Counted from the stretch's first letter, positions 24,873-35,320 are shown. The stretch is DNA of 64,000 bases from Pyrinomonadaceae bacterium (GCA_014380365.1 JACMJZ010000025.1:248001-312000), one strand, 5' to 3'. The notes: generated by a model not told the origin, from the letters alone. Program-made: numbers and translations.

Positions 24873-25006
24873 GAACAGAAGTCAGAGATCAGAAGGCAGA
24901 AGGCAAAAGGCAGAGTTCAAAGGGGTCGGTTCTGCTTTCTGCCTTCTGCCTTCTGCCTTCTGCCTTCTGCCTTCTGCCTTCTGCTCTGATCTCTGACCTC
25001 TGTCTT
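24873..25006. repeat. AGAAGGCAGA / TTCTGCCTTCTGCC inverted repeat (family A)
   Basis: Left arm 24876-24917 has AGAA/GTCAGA/GGCAGA units; right arm 24930-25006 has tandem TTCTGCC units ending CTGATCTCTGACCTCTGTCT. The right arm has at least six TTCTGCC copies in a row. It begins immediately after the ROK gene and could terminate it. Confidence 0.88.
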
Positions 25007-25267: not shown

Positions 25268-25936
25268 ATGCCACAGATTTTTCATCACAGCACTAACGCG
25301 CTCGCAAAGCTGACAATCTATGGCGCGATTTTTATTCTGGTCGCCGCACTTTGGGTGACCGCAGAACTGAATCGTTCATCATGGAACACGGGCCAGTGGG
25401 TTGAACGACAACAACCGGTGCAGTTTAGTCATAAGCACCACGTGGGCGACGACGGCATTGATTGCCGCTACTGCCATACGTCCGTCGAGACTGCGGCGTC
25501 TGCCGGAATTCCGTCAACCGAAACCTGCATGAACTGTCACAAACAGATATGGGCTGATAGTCCTTATCTGGAGCCGGTCCGTGCCAGCTTTCGTACGGGC
25601 AAGCCGATCGAATGGATTCGGGTGCACGACCTGCCTGACTATTCTTATTTCAATCACAGCATTCATGTGAAAAAGGGAGTGGGTTGTTCGACGTGCCATG
25701 GCCGCGTGGATCAGATGCCAATTGCCTACCAGGCATCGACGCTGCAAATGGAATGGTGCCTCGAGTGTCACCGGGCGCCGGAGAATTTTGTACGGCCGGT
25801 CAGTAAAATCTTTGATATGGAGTGGCGGCCGGTTAACACGACGAAAGAAGAGATTGCTGAAGGGAAGTCGCTCGTTTCGAAGTATCGCATTCAAGGGGCG
25901 AACGTATTGACGAGTTGTTCCACCTGTCATCGCTAA
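25268..25936 (+). CDS. actA: Alternative complex III subunit ActA (pentaheme cytochrome c)
   Basis: 222 residues. One N-terminal membrane anchor (about 15-33), then five CXXCH haem sites at 66, 87, 140, 164 and 217. In alternative complex III this subunit carries electrons to the monohaem ActE and on to the oxidase. It is the first gene of the operon, about 100 bases before actB. The pentahaem pattern and position match ActA exactly. Confidence 0.95.
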   Translation: MPQIFHHSTNALAKLTIYGAIFILVAALWVTAELNRSSWNTGQWVERQQPVQFSHKHHVGDDGIDCRYCHTSVETAASAGIPSTETCMNCHKQIWADSPYLEPVRASFRTGKPIEWIRVHDLPDYSYFNHSIHVKKGVGCSTCHGRVDQMPIAYQASTLQMEWCLECHRAPENFVRPVSKIFDMEWRPVNTTKEEIAEGKSLVSKYRIQGANVLTSCSTCHR

Positions 25937-25983
25937 TTCGGTCAGGGTGCCGGGTATCGGGTGTCGGTTGGAAACGTAAAGCT

Positions 25984-26025
25984 GGGAGCGCAGGCATCTT
26001 GCCTGCAATGAGCGCGAAGCGCGAA
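25984..26025. repeat. GGGAGCGCAGGCATCTTGCC repeat (family E)
   Basis: GGGAGCGCAGGCATCTTGCC followed by TGCAATGAGCGCGAAGCGCG. Copies or half copies are at 10684, 27907, 39777 and 39875. It precedes actB and creates a false upstream ATG at 26008. Confidence 0.85.
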
Positions 26026-26037
26026 CAAACTGAAACG

Positions 26038-29000
26038 ATGTCTGAAGATCGACATATAAACTTCAAGCTGATGCGGGAACGCATACTGGCGCTGCAGTCA
26101 GAACCGCCTGCGGTAGCGGGCGGGCCAAGCGACGCTCTGAACGGCCCACCCGCTAACGCAGGCGGTTCTGACAGATCGCCGGGTGGCGGCACCAAATATT
26201 GGCGCAGCCTGGAAGAACTCGCCGACGCGCCGGAATTCCGCGAGTTTGTCGAACGCGAGTATCCACAGCAAGCTGAAGAGTGGAACGATCCATTTGAGCG
26301 CCGCACGTTTCTAAAGTTGATGGGTGCTTCTCTGGCGCTCGCAGGTCTCAGTGGCTGCGCGTTTCAACCTCCCGAAAAGATCGTTCCTTACGTCACGCAG
26401 CCGGAAGGCACACCCGGCAAGTCACTCTTCTTCGCCACCGCTTCTTCGCTCGGCGGAATTGCCACACCGCTCCTGGCCCGTAGCAACGAAGGCCGCCCGA
26501 CGAAAGTTGAGGGAAACCCCGATCATCCGAACAGCCGCAACAGTGACCCTCAGGATCGCGGCTCCAGTGCCACCGACATTTTTGCGCAGGCGTCGATCCT
26601 GAGTCTCTACGATCCGGATCGATCACAGACGACGATGTTCCGCGAAGTCGCCCGCCCCTGGACTACCTTTGTCGGCGAGATTCGCACCGCGCTCGATGAA
26701 CAACGGCCGAAGCAGGGTGCCGGGCTGCGGTTTCTTACCGAGACGATTACGTCGCCTTCCATTGCTGCCCAGCTAAAAGGAATTCTGGCGGAGTTTCCGC
26801 AGGCAAAGTGGCATCAGTATGAGCCGGTGAACAACGACAACGCGCGCGCCGGTGCGGTCGCGGCATTCGGCCAGCCGGTCAACACCGTCTACGACTTCAG
26901 CAAAGCCGACCGCATTCTTTCGCTCGACGCAGATTTCCTTGCAGCCCATCCCGGAACGCTGAAGTACGCGCGCGACTTCGCGGCGCGTCGGCGAATCACG
27001 GAAGGCAAGCACGAGATGAGCCGGCTCTACGTGATTGAAACCACACCGACGACGACGGGCGCGGCGGCGGATCATCATTGGGCCGTGAAGCCGAGTGAAC
27101 TAGTGAAGGCAGCTAGTGCCATCGCAGTGCGAGTCGGAGTTAGTGGGGTTTCCGGCGAGAGTTCGACCAGCGGCCTCGAGGCTGTCGCGCGCGATCTTCA
27201 GCAGCACAAAGGCACGAGCATCGTAATCGCCGGCAGAGAGGCACCGCCTGCTGTACACGCCGTAGCCCACACGATAAATGCTGCGCTCGGCAACGTGGGT
27301 AAGACAGTTCTTTACACCGATCCAATTGAAGCGAACCCAGTTGACCAACGACAGTCGCTTCAGGAACTCGTCAAGGATATCGACGGCGGACGCGTTGAGA
27401 TGCTGGTGATGGTGGGCGGCAATCCGGTCTACAACACGCCTGCTGATCTCAAGCTCGATAAAGACCGGTTGTTCAGAACAAAGCTGCGCGTTCATCTGAG
27501 CCAGTATAAAGATGAAACATCCGAGCTTTGTCATTGGCACATTCCGGAAACACACTACCTCGAAGCCTGGAGCGATACGCGTTCCTTCGACGGCACCGTG
27601 ACTATCGTCCAGCCGCTGATCGAGCCGCTTTATCAGAACAAGAGTGCGCATGAGCTGCTGGCAGTGTTCACGCCAAAATATGATCAGAAGCCTTACGAGA
27701 TCATTCGGGAGTACTGGAAAGGACAGGGGCAGACGGCAGGAGCAGGAAGAGCAACTGCAGGTGTTCAGCCAACGCCTGCTCCGGCCGCGACGCCGTCGGC
27801 TGACTTCGAAAGCTGGTGGCGTCAGTGTGTTCACGATGGCTTTGTTGCTAATACGGCGCTGGCGGCGAAGACTGTCTCCCCAAGTGCTGGAGGGACTTCA
27901 CAGGATGCAGGCAGGATGCCTGCGCTCCCAGCGGGCGGCTCAGGTGGAACATTCGAGATCGTCTTCCGGACGGACCCGACGATCTACGACGGGCGTTTTG
28001 CCAACAACGGCTGGTTGCAGGAGCTGCCGAAGCCGCTCACGAAAATAACCTGGGACAATGCGGCGTTAATTAGTCCGAACACTGCGAAGCAACTTGGAAT
28101 TACTAAGACGATTGGCGAAAAAGGCGGCGACATCCACGTCGATACGCTGAAGATCACTCATCAGGGACGCACGATCGGCGAGCCAGTTCCCACTTGGATC
28201 ACGCCCGGACAACCAGACGACGTTGTCACTCTGCATCTTGGTTATGGCCGCCGTCGCGCGGGCCGTGTCGGCAACGATCACGGATTTAGCGCCTACGAGA
28301 TTCGCACGTCTGATTCGCCATGGTCCGCTTCGGGTGTGCAGGTGGAAAAAGGCGTCGAGCAACACCTGCTGGCTGTTACCCAACTCCACTTCAACATGGA
28401 GGACCGCGACTTCAGCAAAGAAGATCGCGACATCCTGCGTTCGCAAACCTTGGAAGAGTATCTGCATCACGGCGCAGACTATCACCAGACCCACGTGCCG
28501 CGGGAAGATGAGACGCTCTACGATCCGAAGCAGTACGACTACAAAGAGCAGGGCATGGGTTACGCCTGGGGCATGGCGATAGACCTGAACAACTGCGTCG
28601 GCTGCAACGCCTGCACCATCGCCTGCCAGTCAGAAAACAACATTCCGGTGGTGGGTAAAGAGCAGGTGGTGCGCAGCCGCGAGATGCACTGGATTCGCGT
28701 CGACACTTATTTCAAAGGTGACGACCCGGCCGCTCCCGAAGCTACTAACTTCATGCCCGTGCCATGCATGCATTGCGAGAACGCGCCCTGCGAGCCTGTC
28801 TGTCCGGTACATGCAACCGTGCACAGCGCCGAAGGCTTGAACGACATGGTCTACAACCGTTGCGTCGGCACGAAGTACTGTTCGAACAACTGTCCTTACA
28901 AGGTGCGCCGTTTCAACTTCCTGCTTTACCAGGATTGGGAGACGCCGACGTACCAGTTGATGCGCAACCCGGACGTGTCGGTGCGTAGCCGCGGCGTGAT

Positions 29001-30848: not shown

Positions 30849-31484
30849 ATGGCTGAAGACGAGAAACCAGAGGAACCCTGGGAACACGATCTGGAGGACC
30901 CGGAGCCGTTCCATCATGAGTCGGCGCATCCTGCCCATAGTCGCCGGCGAGGTGTGCCCGCGCTCTACGGGATCATGGCCGAGTTTGATAACCCCACGGC
31001 GCTCGTAGCCGCCGCGCGTAGCAGCTACGAAGCGGGCTATCGGCGCATCAACGGCTATTCGCCTTATCCGATTGAAGAACTCGACGAGGCGATTGGTTTC
31101 AAACACACCACTCTGCCGTTGATTGTTTTGATTGGCGGCATTCTCGGCGGGCTGGGTGGTTTTTTCATGCAGTACTGGATGGCGGTGATTAATTACCCAT
31201 TGAATGTTGGCGGAAAACCGCTGAACAGTTGGCCGGCATTTATTCCGATCACGTTCGAATGCACGATTCTGGCCGCCGCGACGGCCGCGGTGCTGGGGAT
31301 GCTCGCGCTAAACAAACTGCCGCAGCCCTATCATCCGGTTTTCAATAATCCGAATTTTGCGCTCGCGACGCGCGACCGGTTCTTTCTGGTTATTGAGGCA
31401 AACGATCCGAAGTTTACCCACGGCGAAGCGATGCAGTTTATGAGAACGCTGGGCGCGAGAGATGTTAGTGATGTTGAAGTATAG
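30849..31484 (+). CDS. actD: Alternative complex III subunit ActD (DUF3341)
   Basis: 211 residues. Two membrane helices (about 95-118 and 140-165) after a soluble N-terminal domain containing YGIMAEFDNPTALVAAAR. This is the standard DUF3341 layout of ActD, a structural membrane subunit. The first 40 residues are His/Pro/Glu-rich. Its 3' end overlaps the in-frame ATGs of actE. Confidence 0.92.
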   Translation: MAEDEKPEEPWEHDLEDPEPFHHESAHPAHSRRRGVPALYGIMAEFDNPTALVAAARSSYEAGYRRINGYSPYPIEELDEAIGFKHTTLPLIVLIGGILGGLGGFFMQYWMAVINYPLNVGGKPLNSWPAFIPITFECTILAAATAAVLGMLALNKLPQPYHPVFNNPNFALATRDRFFLVIEANDPKFTHGEAMQFMRTLGARDVSDVEV

Positions 31485-32391
31485 CGAAAAATTGGGCAGT
31501 GGGCAGTGGGCAGTGGGCAGAAAAGCTGGCCATGCTTTGCGGCTTTGCCGCCGCACCGTGCGGAAAGGCTCTGCCTTTCCGGCGGCTGTCATTTTTGGAC
31601 TTCGCCAGGCTGCGCCTGTCCACAGTTTGGGAGGCACAGCCTCCAGTTCCAACCCCGAGCTGCCGGAAAGGCACAGCCTTTCCGCACTGTGCGGCGGCAG
31701 AGCCGCACAGCGCCCGGCACTCTGCCTATTGCTTTCTGCCTTCTGCCTACTCGCAGCCGCAGGCTGCCGTCGCGACATGCAGGATCAACCGAAGATGAAG
31801 CCGTATCGCGCGTCGACCTTCTTCACGGATGGTTTGTCGTCGCGACCGCCCGTGGAGGGCACTGTCGCACGCGGGTATCTGATGACTGATACGGAGTTTT
31901 TCACGGGGAAGAAGCCAGGCAGAGGGGTCGCCCCGGCTGGGACTCCAACGACGACTAACGCTGGAGCGAACTCGGGCGCGGCGGCTTATCCGGACGATGT
32001 GGAAGTTTTTCCGCTCACGATAACCAAAGAGAACGTGGTCCGCGGCAAAGAGCGTTACGAGATCTTTTGTTCCGCGTGCCACGGCCTGACCGGCAATGGA
32101 GATGGCATGATTGTGAGACGCGGCTTCCGGCGCGCTGCTTCGTTTAATGAGGAACGCTTGCGGCAGGCGCCCATTGGCCACTACTTCGACGCGATTACAA
32201 ACGGCTGGGGCGCAATGCCGAGTTACGCGACGCAAATTCCCGCCGAGGACCGCTGGGCGATCATCGCCTACATTCGTGCTTTGCAGTTGAGTCAGCAAAA
32301 GAGCGAGACGACCGCGGGCCAGGCCCCCTTAACAACAACGCCAGCGCCAGCGCAATCGCCCGCCGTTCACAGTGGAGGGCCAGCGCACTGA
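31462..32391 (+). CDS. actE: Alternative complex III subunit ActE (lipoprotein cytochrome c) with repeat-built signal peptide
   Basis: The mature protein starts at Cys in CLLAAAGCRRDMQDQPK, a lipobox followed by the ActE signature, and carries one haem site, CSACH, in a mono-haem cytochrome c domain. The only in-frame ATGs are 31462 and 31471, overlapping actD; GTG or TTG codons lie between. From there to the lipobox the reading frame is a nested palindromic element (31494-31747), giving about 90 unusual residues (RLCRRTVRKGSAF...). The right outer arm encodes LCLLLSAFCLL, the signal-peptide core. The stop overlaps the actF start (TGATG). Function is certain; the true start is not. Confidence 0.9.
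   Translation: MLVMLKYSEKLGSGQWAVGRKAGHALRLCRRTVRKGSAFPAAVIFGLRQAAPVHSLGGTASSSNPELPERHSLSALCGGRAAQRPALCLLLSAFCLLAAAGCRRDMQDQPKMKPYRASTFFTDGLSSRPPVEGTVARGYLMTDTEFFTGKKPGRGVAPAGTPTTTNAGANSGAAAYPDDVEVFPLTITKENVVRGKERYEIFCSACHGLTGNGDGMIVRRGFRRAASFNEERLRQAPIGHYFDAITNGWGAMPSYATQIPAEDRWAIIAYIRALQLSQQKSETTAGQAPLTTTPAPAQSPAVHSGGPAH
31494..31747. repeat. Nested palindromic composite element, copy 1
   Basis: Three concentric layers. Outer arms: GGGCAGTGGGCAGTGGGCAG from 31494, against CTGCC/TTCTGCC tandems 31719-31747. Middle arms: 31534-31582 (GCGGCTTTGCCGCCGCACCG onward) against 31663-31706 (CCGGAAAGGCACAGCCTTTC onward). Inner hairpins: CAGGCTGCGCCTG near 31607 and GGAGGCACAGCCTCC at 31630-31644. The same architecture and order recur at 34173-34486. 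Confidence 0.93.
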
Positions 32392-33578
32392 TGGTCTCTT
32401 ACGCACCACCAGCGAGCATCGCAAGATTTCAGCGTCTGGCGCTGATCGTCGGGATTGTGTTCACAGCCCTCTTCGTGGTCGGCTACTTCCTGGATCATGA
32501 CCAGTTTTTTCATTCCTATCTCTTTGCATTCAGTTTTTGGGCGGGCATCGCGATTGGCTCGCTCGCGCTTTTGATGCTGCAACATCTGACTGGCGGTGGC
32601 TGGGGGTTTGTAATTCGTCGCGTGCTCGAGGCCTCCACGCGCACGCTGCCGTTTGTAGCGCTCCTGTTTGTGCCCATCGTTCTTGGCGCCCACTCCATTT
32701 ATAGCTGGACGCACCCTGAACACGTGGCTCAGCACCCGGCGCTCGTGCTGAAGTCGAAATATCTGAACTTGCCGTTTTTCAGCATTCGCGCGGTTGTCTA
32801 TTTCGCGATCTGGTTTTTGCTCACGTTCTTTTTGAACCGCTGGTCGAAGCTGCAAGACACGACGGCGGAGCGGCAATTCAACAAGCGCATGCAAACGCTC
32901 AGCGGCCCAGGAATGGTGCTTTTAGTTTTCACGGTCACTGGCGCCTCGATCGACTGGTTCATGTCGCTCGACCCGGAGTGGTATTCCACGATTTACGGAT
33001 TTGTTTTTGTCGCCTCGTGGGCCTTGAGCGCCCTGGCTTTCGTGATTGCGGTGATGGCTTCGCTCGCAAAGCACGAGCCGATGAACGTGATCGTCGCGCA
33101 GTTACACTTCCACGATCTTGGCAAACTGCTGTTGGCCTTGGTGATGCTCTGGTCGTACTTTGCCTTTTCGCAGTTTCTGATTATTTGGTCGGCAAACTTG
33201 CCGGAAGAGATCCGCTGGTATTTGCCGAGAACCAAAGGCGGATGGGGCGTCATCGCCGTAAGCGTGATCGTGCTTCATTTTGCGTTTCCGTTTCTGTTTC
33301 TGCTGTCGCGTTCGTTGAAACGCAACGCCGGCAAACTGGTACTCGTTGCGTCGTTAATTCTGGTGATGCGTCTATATGATCTGCTGTGGATGATCGCGCC
33401 CACCTGGACGGGCGAACACTTCCGCGTCAGCTGGATGGACGTGGTGGCGCCCATCGGCATGGGCGGCTTATGGCTCGCTGCGTTTGCGCGCAGCTTGATG
33501 AATCGGCCTCTGATCCCCATTAACGATCCGCAGTATGAAAGCGTGCTGCAACAGGGACAGGCCCACGCGGGACACTAA
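32391..33578 (+). CDS. actF: Alternative complex III subunit ActF (NrfD-like)
   Basis: 395 residues, about ten membrane helices, starting inside the actE stop codon. FLDHDQFFHSYLFAFSFWAG near the N-terminus and FHDLGKLLLALVMLWSYFAF in the middle are typical of the second NrfD-like subunit. With ActC it forms the membrane core of the complex. Confidence 0.93.
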   Translation: MVSYAPPASIARFQRLALIVGIVFTALFVVGYFLDHDQFFHSYLFAFSFWAGIAIGSLALLMLQHLTGGGWGFVIRRVLEASTRTLPFVALLFVPIVLGAHSIYSWTHPEHVAQHPALVLKSKYLNLPFFSIRAVVYFAIWFLLTFFLNRWSKLQDTTAERQFNKRMQTLSGPGMVLLVFTVTGASIDWFMSLDPEWYSTIYGFVFVASWALSALAFVIAVMASLAKHEPMNVIVAQLHFHDLGKLLLALVMLWSYFAFSQFLIIWSANLPEEIRWYLPRTKGGWGVIAVSVIVLHFAFPFLFLLSRSLKRNAGKLVLVASLILVMRLYDLLWMIAPTWTGEHFRVSWMDVVAPIGMGGLWLAAFARSLMNRPLIPINDPQYESVLQQGQAHAGH

Positions 33579-33596
33579 AGATTTGTTTGGAACCGA

Positions 33597-34169
33597 ATGA
33601 TGTCTGGAAGTAAACACAAAGGTAACGGGAAGCTCCACGTAACTGAAACGCCCGACGTGAGTCACATCAAGAATCTCGATGTCACTCACGAAGCCAGCGA
33701 CGTCAGCGTCGGAGGCATTCTGAAGTTTGTCGTGGGCCTGACCATATTCGCCGTCGTAGTCCACGTGCTGATGTGGGGTATGTTCCGGCTGCTGAAGGCG
33801 CAGGAGGAAAAGGAGCCGTCGCCGGGGCCGATGGCCATGACTGAGCAGGAGCGACTGCCGCCAGCCCCCAGGCTGCAGGCGGCAACCGGCTTTGGCATCA
33901 AGCTGGAAAATGGGGAGTGGGTGAATCTGGAGAACAGAGAACCGGAGGCGGAGTACCGCGTGCTGCGCACTCAATGGGAACAAATTCTCAGCGGGGGTTT
34001 GAAGGATCAGTCTGGGAAGGTGGTAGGCATGCCAATCGACCAGGCGATGGAGAAGATTTTGGAAGCTGGCGTTCCTTCACGAAAGCAAAGCGAAGGTTCG
34101 ACGGGTACGGTCGACTCGCGGCTGAAGCTGCCGACGGCGGAGAGTTCAGGAAGAGTGGCGGGACAATAA
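33597..34169 (+). CDS. Single-pass membrane protein of the act-cox operon, unknown
   Basis: 190 residues. A polar N-terminus (about 40 residues) precedes one membrane helix (VGGILKFVVGLTIFAVVVHV at about 41-60), then a Pro-rich linker and a periplasmic domain containing YRVLRTQWEQIL and MPIDQAMEKIL. Position between actF and sco, plus TAATG coupling to the next gene, suggest a role in complex assembly or stability. I do not recognise a named family. Confidence 0.8.
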   Translation: MMSGSKHKGNGKLHVTETPDVSHIKNLDVTHEASDVSVGGILKFVVGLTIFAVVVHVLMWGMFRLLKAQEEKEPSPGPMAMTEQERLPPAPRLQAATGFGIKLENGEWVNLENREPEAEYRVLRTQWEQILSGGLKDQSGKVVGMPIDQAMEKILEAGVPSRKQSEGSTGTVDSRLKLPTAESSGRVAGQ

Positions 34170-35320
34170 TGACAGAAGGCAGTAGGCAGAGGGCAGTAGG
34201 CAGAAAGCAGAAGGCATTAGGCATAAGACAGAGTGCGCTTGGCCTTTCGCGGCTTTGCCGCCGCACCGTGCGGAAAGGCTTTGCCTTTCCGGTGCTAGTA
34301 ATTTTGAAATTTCGCAAGGCTGCGCCTTGCGATCTTTTCGGAGGCGGAGCCTCCGGAGATATTTCATCGCATTTGCCGGAAAGCCATAGGCTTTCCGCAC
34401 TGTGCGGCGGCACAGCAGCGGCTTCCGCGTCGGCTGTTCTAAGTGCGTGCGTCTGCATTCTGCTTTTTGCCTTCTGCCTTCTGCCTACCGCCCGCGCTCA
34501 GTTTAGCCAGACGCAGGGAAACTCGCCGCTTTACAGTTCGCGTCCTTATGAGGCGAGGGCTCCCAGTGGTTTGCCAAAAGCCCTGGCTGACGTCGGCATC
34601 GATCAGAAGCTCAACGAGCAACTGCCGCTGGACGCCGTCTTCAAAAACGAACATGGCGAAAGCGTGAAACTGGGCGACTACTTTGGAAAGAAGCCCGTGT
34701 TGTTGTCGCTCGTCTATTACGAGTGTCCGATGCTTTGCAACCAAGTGCTCAACGGCATGGTTACCAACTTCCGCGTGCTGGCGTTTCAGCCCGGACAGGA
34801 ATTTGAAGTGGTGACGGTTAGTTTCGACACTCGAGAAACTCCCGCGCTGGCGGCGGCGAAGAAGAAGACCTACATCGACTATCTGCCGGCGGCAAAGCGC
34901 GAGGGTGCGGCAAAGGGTTGGCATTTTCTGACCGGCAATGCAGCGAACATTAAGCGGTTGACTGAAGCGGTCGGGTTTCGGTATCGCTTCGACAGCGAGA
35001 CGAATCAGTTTGCGCACGGGAGCGGGATTTTTGTCGCGACGCCCCAAGGCAAGCTGGCGAGGTATTTCTACGGCATTGAATACGCGCCCCGCGACGTGAG
35101 GCTGGGTTTGATCGAGGCCGCGGAAAACAAGATCGGATCGCCCGTCGACCAGTTGCTGCTTTACTGTTTTCACTACGATCCCGCGACCGGGAAATACGGC
35201 GCGGTCGTAATGAACATGGTTCAGCTGGGAGGGATCCTAACTTTGATGGCTATAGGTGCGATGTTTTTTGTGATGCGCCGTCGGGTGCGTGCGCGCGGAC
35301 TCAGGGAGCGCGTGGTTTAG
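34169..35320 (+). CDS. SCO1/SenC-type copper chaperone with repeat-built signal peptide
   Basis: Delivers copper to the CuA site of the oxidase encoded just downstream. The thioredoxin-fold core has YYECPMLCNQ (CXXXC copper ligands) and the distal His in FAHGSGIF, and ends with a membrane helix (GGILTLMAIGAMFFVM). The ATG at 34169 overlaps the previous stop (TAATG). Codons from there to about 34490 are the second copy of the nested palindrome, and its right outer arm encodes ILLFAFCLLPTARA, which ends at a good signal-peptidase site before QFSQTQ. So the exported protein begins near 34499, while the start codon is about 330 bases upstream. Confidence 0.88.
   Translation: MTEGSRQRAVGRKQKALGIRQSALGLSRLCRRTVRKGFAFPVLVILKFRKAAPCDLFGGGASGDISSHLPESHRLSALCGGTAAASASAVLSACVCILLFAFCLLPTARAQFSQTQGNSPLYSSRPYEARAPSGLPKALADVGIDQKLNEQLPLDAVFKNEHGESVKLGDYFGKKPVLLSLVYYECPMLCNQVLNGMVTNFRVLAFQPGQEFEVVTVSFDTRETPALAAAKKKTYIDYLPAAKREGAAKGWHFLTGNAANIKRLTEAVGFRYRFDSETNQFAHGSGIFVATPQGKLARYFYGIEYAPRDVRLGLIEAAENKIGSPVDQLLLYCFHYDPATGKYGAVVMNMVQLGGILTLMAIGAMFFVMRRRVRARGLRERVV
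34173..34486. repeat. Nested palindromic composite element, copy 2
   Basis: Outer arms: AGAAGGCAGTAGGCAGAGGG from 34173 to 34216, against tandem CTTCTGCC at 34453-34486. Middle arms: 34247-34292 against 34376-34410, sharing the words GGCTTTGCCGCCGCACCGTG and CGGAAAGGCT with copy 1. Inner hairpins: GCAAGGCTGCGCCTTGC at 34314-34330 and GGAGGCGGAGCCTCC at about 34340-34354. Confidence 0.93.

Follow-up and report, generated by a model that had tools for sequence, protein, structure and literature searches.

The window analysed here, a stretch of 64,000 nucleotides, derives from a soil bacterium of the family Pyrinomonadaceae (Blastocatellia, Acidobacteriota). In it, sco and oxidase genes come after an operon for alternative complex III. 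The actE ORF (31462..32391, plus strand), coding for the monoheme cytochrome c subunit of alternative complex III, begins at the ATG at 31462 or 31471, both of which overlap the end of actD (stop codon at 31482-31484), and the sco ORF (34169..35320, plus strand) begins at a coupled ATG at 34169 (TAATGA); both ORFs, as delimited here, include a repeat-encoded leader. Each runs unbroken from its coupled start across a composite repeat into the mature protein. The codons at the coupled starts recur in relatives, with M-(W/L/S)-K-S-E being kept in many of them for actE and M-K or M-R found in most sco genes. Gene starts and signal peptides were called by simple rules, and by these sequence rules AAAG↓C precedes the cytochrome c domain and ARA↓Q the SCO1/SenC domain. 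The Cys of the lipobox (codon at 31765..31767, plus strand) is the predicted residue 1 of mature ActE and is conserved among orthologues together with the following R-x-D-M-Q-D-Q-P, and the AQ junction at the predicted signal peptidase I site of Sco (34490..34501, plus strand, with the cut between 34498 and 34499) is likewise conserved. Judged by these leader motifs, ActE is predicted to be a lipoprotein and Sco a substrate of signal peptidase I; a lipobox with a lipid anchor has been proposed also for the ActE of Rhodothermus marinus (PMC5928083). The n-regions of both leaders are far longer than usual, the whole leaders comprising about 100-110 residues in the host genome.

One of the two composites lies between the actD end and mature ActE, the other between mature Sco and the ORF ahead of it. 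They are built of the same layers, with a palindrome of about 175 bp enclosed by a purine-rich heptad array on its 5' side and a pyrimidine-rich one on its 3' side. Both were present where a preliminary description had placed them, between coupled start and mature protein, and both are open in frame. In actE, the purine-rich outer 5' arm (R-arm, 31493..31520, plus strand) consists of four TGGGCAG units and opens the long n-region, the inner palindrome (31534..31711) has 54-nt arms with 91% complementarity, lies in frame in the n-region and folds as a single strand at -133.6 kcal/mol, and the outer 3' arm (Y-arm, 31721..31751, plus strand), of the CTTCTGCC type, encodes the h-region LCLLLSAFCLL; the left arm (TGGGCAG) is not an exact complement of the right arm (CTTCTGC). 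The corresponding layers in sco are an outer 5' arm of 8.6 units of the CAGAAGG type (34173..34232, plus strand), encoding EGSRQRAVGRKQKALGIRQ, an inner palindrome at 34246-34419, in the n-region, whose arms (34248-34292 and 34376-34420) are 87% complementary and of which a copy is also found in sco of the related genome G006, and a Y-arm (34452..34491, plus strand) encoding the h-region CILLFAFCLLP. The heptad tracts are short and imperfect, with four perfect units in actE and 75% matches in sco. The best hydrophobic window lies 97% inside the Y-arm array in actE and wholly within it in sco, in agreement with the earlier proposal that the outer right arm is translated as leader core, and LLLSAFCLLAAAGC and LLFAFCLLPTARA↓Q could be read from the actE and sco leaders as previously described. 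Internal GTG and TTG starts are present within the element; from the Y-arm to the mature protein there is no start codon in either gene, and with the Y-arm taken away no leader is left. These leaders are encoded, in the host genome, within an mRNA hairpin of about -190 kcal/mol. The heptad pair TTCTGCCTTCTGCC, with two mismatches at most, occurs 27 times in the window as compared with 0.59 expected from dinucleotide shuffles, and upstream of actA the same heptad family forms a hairpin in intergenic, untranslated DNA (24888..24985, with the R-arm at 24888-24915 and the Y-arm at 24930-24985). As a separate observation, the N-terminal part of an ActB-like ORF (window 25915-26130) contains a further repeat-like stretch, SEPPAVAGGPSDALNGPPANAGGSD, with AGRMPALPAGG deeper inside; these are possibly in-frame insertions of a third repeat family.

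Because 7 and 3 share no factor, a heptad tandem encodes the same peptide in any frame, with all three frames being traversed every 21 nt. A TTCTGCC arm thus reads FCLLPSA and a GGCAGAA arm GRRQKAE, cyclically, in every frame, with (CTTCTGC)n giving LPSAFCL and the inverted 5' arm the basic GRRQKAE. The right arms of actE and sco do give the peptides earlier reported for them, but their being read in the same frame, which had been taken as significant, carries no information, since heptads pass through every frame and such agreement is automatic. The informative point is which units occur, not their frame: a stop-free 5' arm of net positive charge combined with an uncharged hydrophobic 3' arm is encoded by 3.4% of all heptamers. 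On the antisense strand a codon with a central A, for a hydrophilic residue, becomes one with a central T, for a hydrophobic residue, and for this reason a purine-first hairpin with a unit coprime to 3 would read basic and then hydrophobic in every frame.

When orthologous 5' ends were compared, as the preliminary description had suggested, the upstream start and the mature protein were found to be kept around the arrays, rather than an ordinary start lying downstream of them. Arrays of 7- or 8-nt units were located between the conserved start and the mature protein in 17 of 21 actE and 18 of 30 sco orthologues, which share ancestry and are thus not independent samples. No arrays at lags 4, 5, 10 or 11 were seen in the leaders of these 21 actE and 30 sco genes, and the mature control stretches of the orthologues had no arrays at any tested lag. 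Wherever both arms were detected, the purine-rich arm was 5' and the pyrimidine-rich arm 3', and in genes with a detected 3' arm the best hydrophobic window fell mainly in the array (12 of 16 for actE, 15 of 16 for sco). Unit families vary among species at one and the same site, even at actE of G004 and G012, two sister species with 94.6% identity between their mature Sco proteins. Where an orthologue lacks the array, its leader can be of the ordinary kind, with about 21-28 residues (actE of G015, sco of G011). The 17 arrays before actE compare with none in 20 before the coupled actF (p 5e-8), and the 18 before sco with one in 30 after sco. An 8-nt unit family, ACGCGGAG/ACACGGAG, with 8 also being coprime to 3, was observed in the same leaders (actE of G001, G007, G009, G011, G014 and G017; sco of G007 and G013), with RHGDTETR and SPRLRVSA as examples of the peptides encoded; the 3' arm of this family shows weak hydrophobicity and usually stands ahead of a separate h-region.

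Genome surveys covered 1.64 Mb of the host genome and 0.4 Mb of G017, with the TTCTGCC pattern scan made over the whole genome. In the 1.64 Mb, tandem arrays of period 7 far outnumbered those of any other period below 14 (84 versus 0-16), and the heptad arrays were mostly intergenic, often beginning less than 20 nt from the upstream stop codon. Inverted heptad pairs were found in both polarities, 26 being purine-first and 12 pyrimidine-first. Leader arms differed from intergenic hairpins in having no stop codon in the 3' arm (0/36 versus 13/38, p 7e-5) and in the median hydropathy of that arm (1.19 versus -0.06, p 9e-7). Six of 17 TTCTGCC-type loci (whole-genome pattern scan), as against none of the 57 loci of other heptad families (1.64 Mb), lay in N-terminal leaders of exported proteins, with these two counts being drawn from unequal amounts of sequence. 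The search for further genes with leaders of this type, also proposed earlier, gave four loci beyond actE and sco: C6:5100 codes for a lipoprotein (MTTSRQKAQGSRQ...LLIFCLLPTAFCLLNC), C8:131373 for a secreted protein of about 1000 residues, C8:149274 for a SurA-like protein, in whose gene the R-arm precedes the ATG, and C1:9888 for a pilin-like protein, in which the array stands ahead of GFTLLELMIV. With all heptads pooled there was no enrichment at predicted signal-peptide genes (9/266 versus 88/1246), because most heptad families, including TTTGGAC, AGTTTCG and GATGAGT, encode stops or poorly hydrophobic peptides and remain intergenic; the leader signal is specific to the TTCTGCC type. Start-coupled genes showed a weak, merely suggestive enrichment (4/44 versus 8/244), and this, taken with the pooled null result, makes actE and sco exceptional.

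Some additional observations were made in these surveys. In the pilin-like gene (L012:3848-4342), the prepilin leader is made of TTCTGCC-type heptad arms, and repeat-made leaders may therefore not be limited to Sec signal peptides with sites for signal peptidase I or II. At C2:124079, C5:414671 and C20:354464 a purine-rich heptad arm forms the C-terminal tail of the upstream protein (e.g. ...SRYYRQKAEGRTQ followed by the stop), looking as if the array had replaced the original stop codon. A predicted lipoprotein leader at C23:315248 of G017 carries a different palindrome-like stretch (AGGEGGGGRGCRRAQPHPQPLPAHGEGRRP), which suggests that leaders take up other repeat families too. No Rfam family scored above its gathering threshold; two eukaryotic miRNA models gave matches far below theirs (56.4 versus 168 and 23.9 versus 90), which we regard as sub-threshold artefacts of a kind that any long hairpin might give.

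The nested palindrome, to which the signal-peptide cores had at first been attributed, turned out to be a separate repeat family with 39 full copies in the genome, most of them intergenic and mostly without heptads, the cores coming instead from the outer arm. It is also frequent in several other genera of Pyrinomonadaceae. Six copies are read through in frame by genes with coding signal, and five of these lie in signal-peptide n-regions, namely those of actE, sco, an amidohydrolase, a TolC-like protein and a PQQ-propeller protein, the last being the least certain case as its core has no upstream ATG; the sixth is in the C-terminal part of a transpeptidase-SpoIID protein. Five of six in n-regions is far beyond chance (3.8e-10, or 3e-6 when the actE and sco copies are left out), with a rough base rate of signal-peptide n-regions as about 1% of coding DNA. 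Since the palindrome is used in two different frames at signal-peptide genes, and heptads are indifferent to frame, the suggestion that insertion is tolerated in one frame only can be discarded. Within the TolC-like family, the insertion recurs in G006, where two 3-nt indels are seen, and apparent in-frame deletion scars are found in G004 and G012. Insertion-free orthologues have ordinary leaders. The amidohydrolase and TolC-like genes have a native-type h-region after the core, whereas in actE and sco the heptads supply it. The long protein that carries the sixth copy (L048:1037-4045, contig C33) has in addition, where its transpeptidase-like and SpoIID-like parts meet, an inverted repeat of octads (DAETQRKGDMETRG...SPRLRVPASPRR), with the palindrome copy nearer its C-terminus, and is possibly a gene fusion through repeats.

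We consider it probable, as read from the sequences, that hairpin repeats were captured at coupled junctions, tolerated where they happened to spell a leader, and then locked in. The outer arms would be members of the large set of inverted heptanucleotide arrays found between genes in this genome, which typically start about 20 nt or less past a stop codon; if the following gene begins at this very stop codon, as at actD-actE and at the junction before sco, there is no spacer and the array would join the downstream protein. Each arm, with its unit of 7 or sometimes 8 nt, would contribute one fixed peptide whatever the frame, and with GGCAGAA/TTCTGCC-type units the purine-rich 5' arm would be basic and hydrophilic and the complementary 3' arm hydrophobic, in the order of n- and h-region. 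Owing to this order the array would be tolerated before exported proteins and not before others, a filter that is seen statistically. An array landing in or beside a leader would have been nearly neutral, only lengthening the n- and h-regions, whereupon a redundant native h-region could decay and leave the array as the only good export core, which could not be discarded. Such indispensability, a lock-in step that we infer, would explain the occupancy of 81% at actE and 60% at sco. In the host genome, the unrelated palindrome would in addition have entered between the arms, in frame, merely lengthening the n-region. Exaptation and tolerance had been offered as alternatives; both seem to apply, with tolerance filtering the surviving repeats and exaptation following once the native core is gone, and the restriction to one frame has to be given up. 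Counting against this mechanism, the -190 kcal/mol mRNA hairpin might hinder translation.

It could also be that the actE and sco junctions attract or generate arrays, for instance by a nick or slippage at the stop/start, with leader function as a by-product. That these occupancies are far above those of other coupled exported genes (4/44), and that arrays begin right at the upstream stop codon, would fit such a hot spot, but on its own it would not give a filter for 3' arms that lack stops and are hydrophobic, actE-actF as the operon's next coupled junction is empty in all 20 cases, and TTCTGCC-type units also stand in leaders at the four other loci. We find it unlikely as the whole explanation, though it could contribute alongside the main mechanism. 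The two remaining readings were judged weaker. That the arrays are mere 5' or intergenic mRNA hairpins, acting in attenuation, stability or coupling, with starts located downstream and the open frame coincidental, seems very improbable: most genomic heptad arrays are indeed intergenic, the elements fold extremely stably and the SurA-like gene has its R-arm before the ATG, but the absence of any start between Y-arm and mature protein in actE and sco, the frames remaining open in the array-bearing orthologues (17/21 and 18/30) despite unit turnover, the lack in leader arms of the stops seen in intergenic arms and the two 3-nt indels and in-frame scars of the TolC-like family all speak against it. 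Phase variation of ActE and Sco through changes in heptad copy number, for which a 7-nt unit that is not a multiple of 3 would be suitable and which is reported to be driven by a heptanucleotide tract in HMW1A of Haemophilus influenzae (PMC8262952), is still harder to credit, as the leader tracts are short and imperfect and respiratory-chain subunits appear unlikely as switching targets.

Returning to capture with subsequent lock-in, we think the chances about evenly balanced that inverted arrays of heptads and octads serve the Blastocatellia generally as a source of new signal peptides that does not depend on frame, with leaders having been repeatedly replaced at coupled starts and retained after loss of the native core. 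Export by way of the array leaders is itself a prediction from sequence.

Short tandem repeats with 7-nt units are known under the name STRR. Intergenic heptameric tandem repeats in many copies are described for cyanobacteria and Xanthomonas (PMC4692102); the present arrays differ in being paired as inverted arms, read as protein and supplying a predicted signal-peptide core. One clear precedent was found in the enterobacterial RU-1, RU-2 and RU-3 elements, which are MITE-like (Delihas 2007, PMC2759123). They resemble the present repeats in being small, palindromic and mostly intergenic, with some fused in frame, and RU-2 makes up a portion of the signal peptide predicted for YPO1552, whose relatives have an unrelated one. 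Each RU, however, is there one fixed element in a particular frame, neither a tandem heptad nor frame-independent, and no recurrent replacement at orthologous sites, such as seen in actE and sco leaders, is reported in the parts of that account considered here. The inner core resembles, in its described features, the Rickettsia and Wolbachia RPE of Ogata and co-workers (cited in PMC2996958), which are palindromic and in frame within genes, typically in non-structured segments, since it too is multi-copy in coding and non-coding DNA with in-frame insertion compatible with function; the RPE occupy assorted housekeeping genes and positions, whereas five of six in-gene copies of the inner core are in n-regions of signal peptides predicted to be cleavable. 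In Borg elements, fast-evolving tandem repeats create protein segments and repeat proteins are enriched in signal peptides, but the unit lengths within ORFs are all divisible by three, while here, with units of 7 or 8, it is periodicity that removes the frame problem (PMC9879509). In the open-licence papers, which were those searchable, we found no description of heptad-encoded signal peptides.

The arrays would provide a concrete route, open to testing, on which non-coding repeats turn into functional parts of proteins without having to hit the right reading frame, and would account for repeats being kept in the leaders of exported proteins while being absent from cytoplasmic N-termini. Gene callers may misplace the starts of genes with such repeat-encoded leaders, and signal peptides would appear to be exchanged as disposable modules within one genus.
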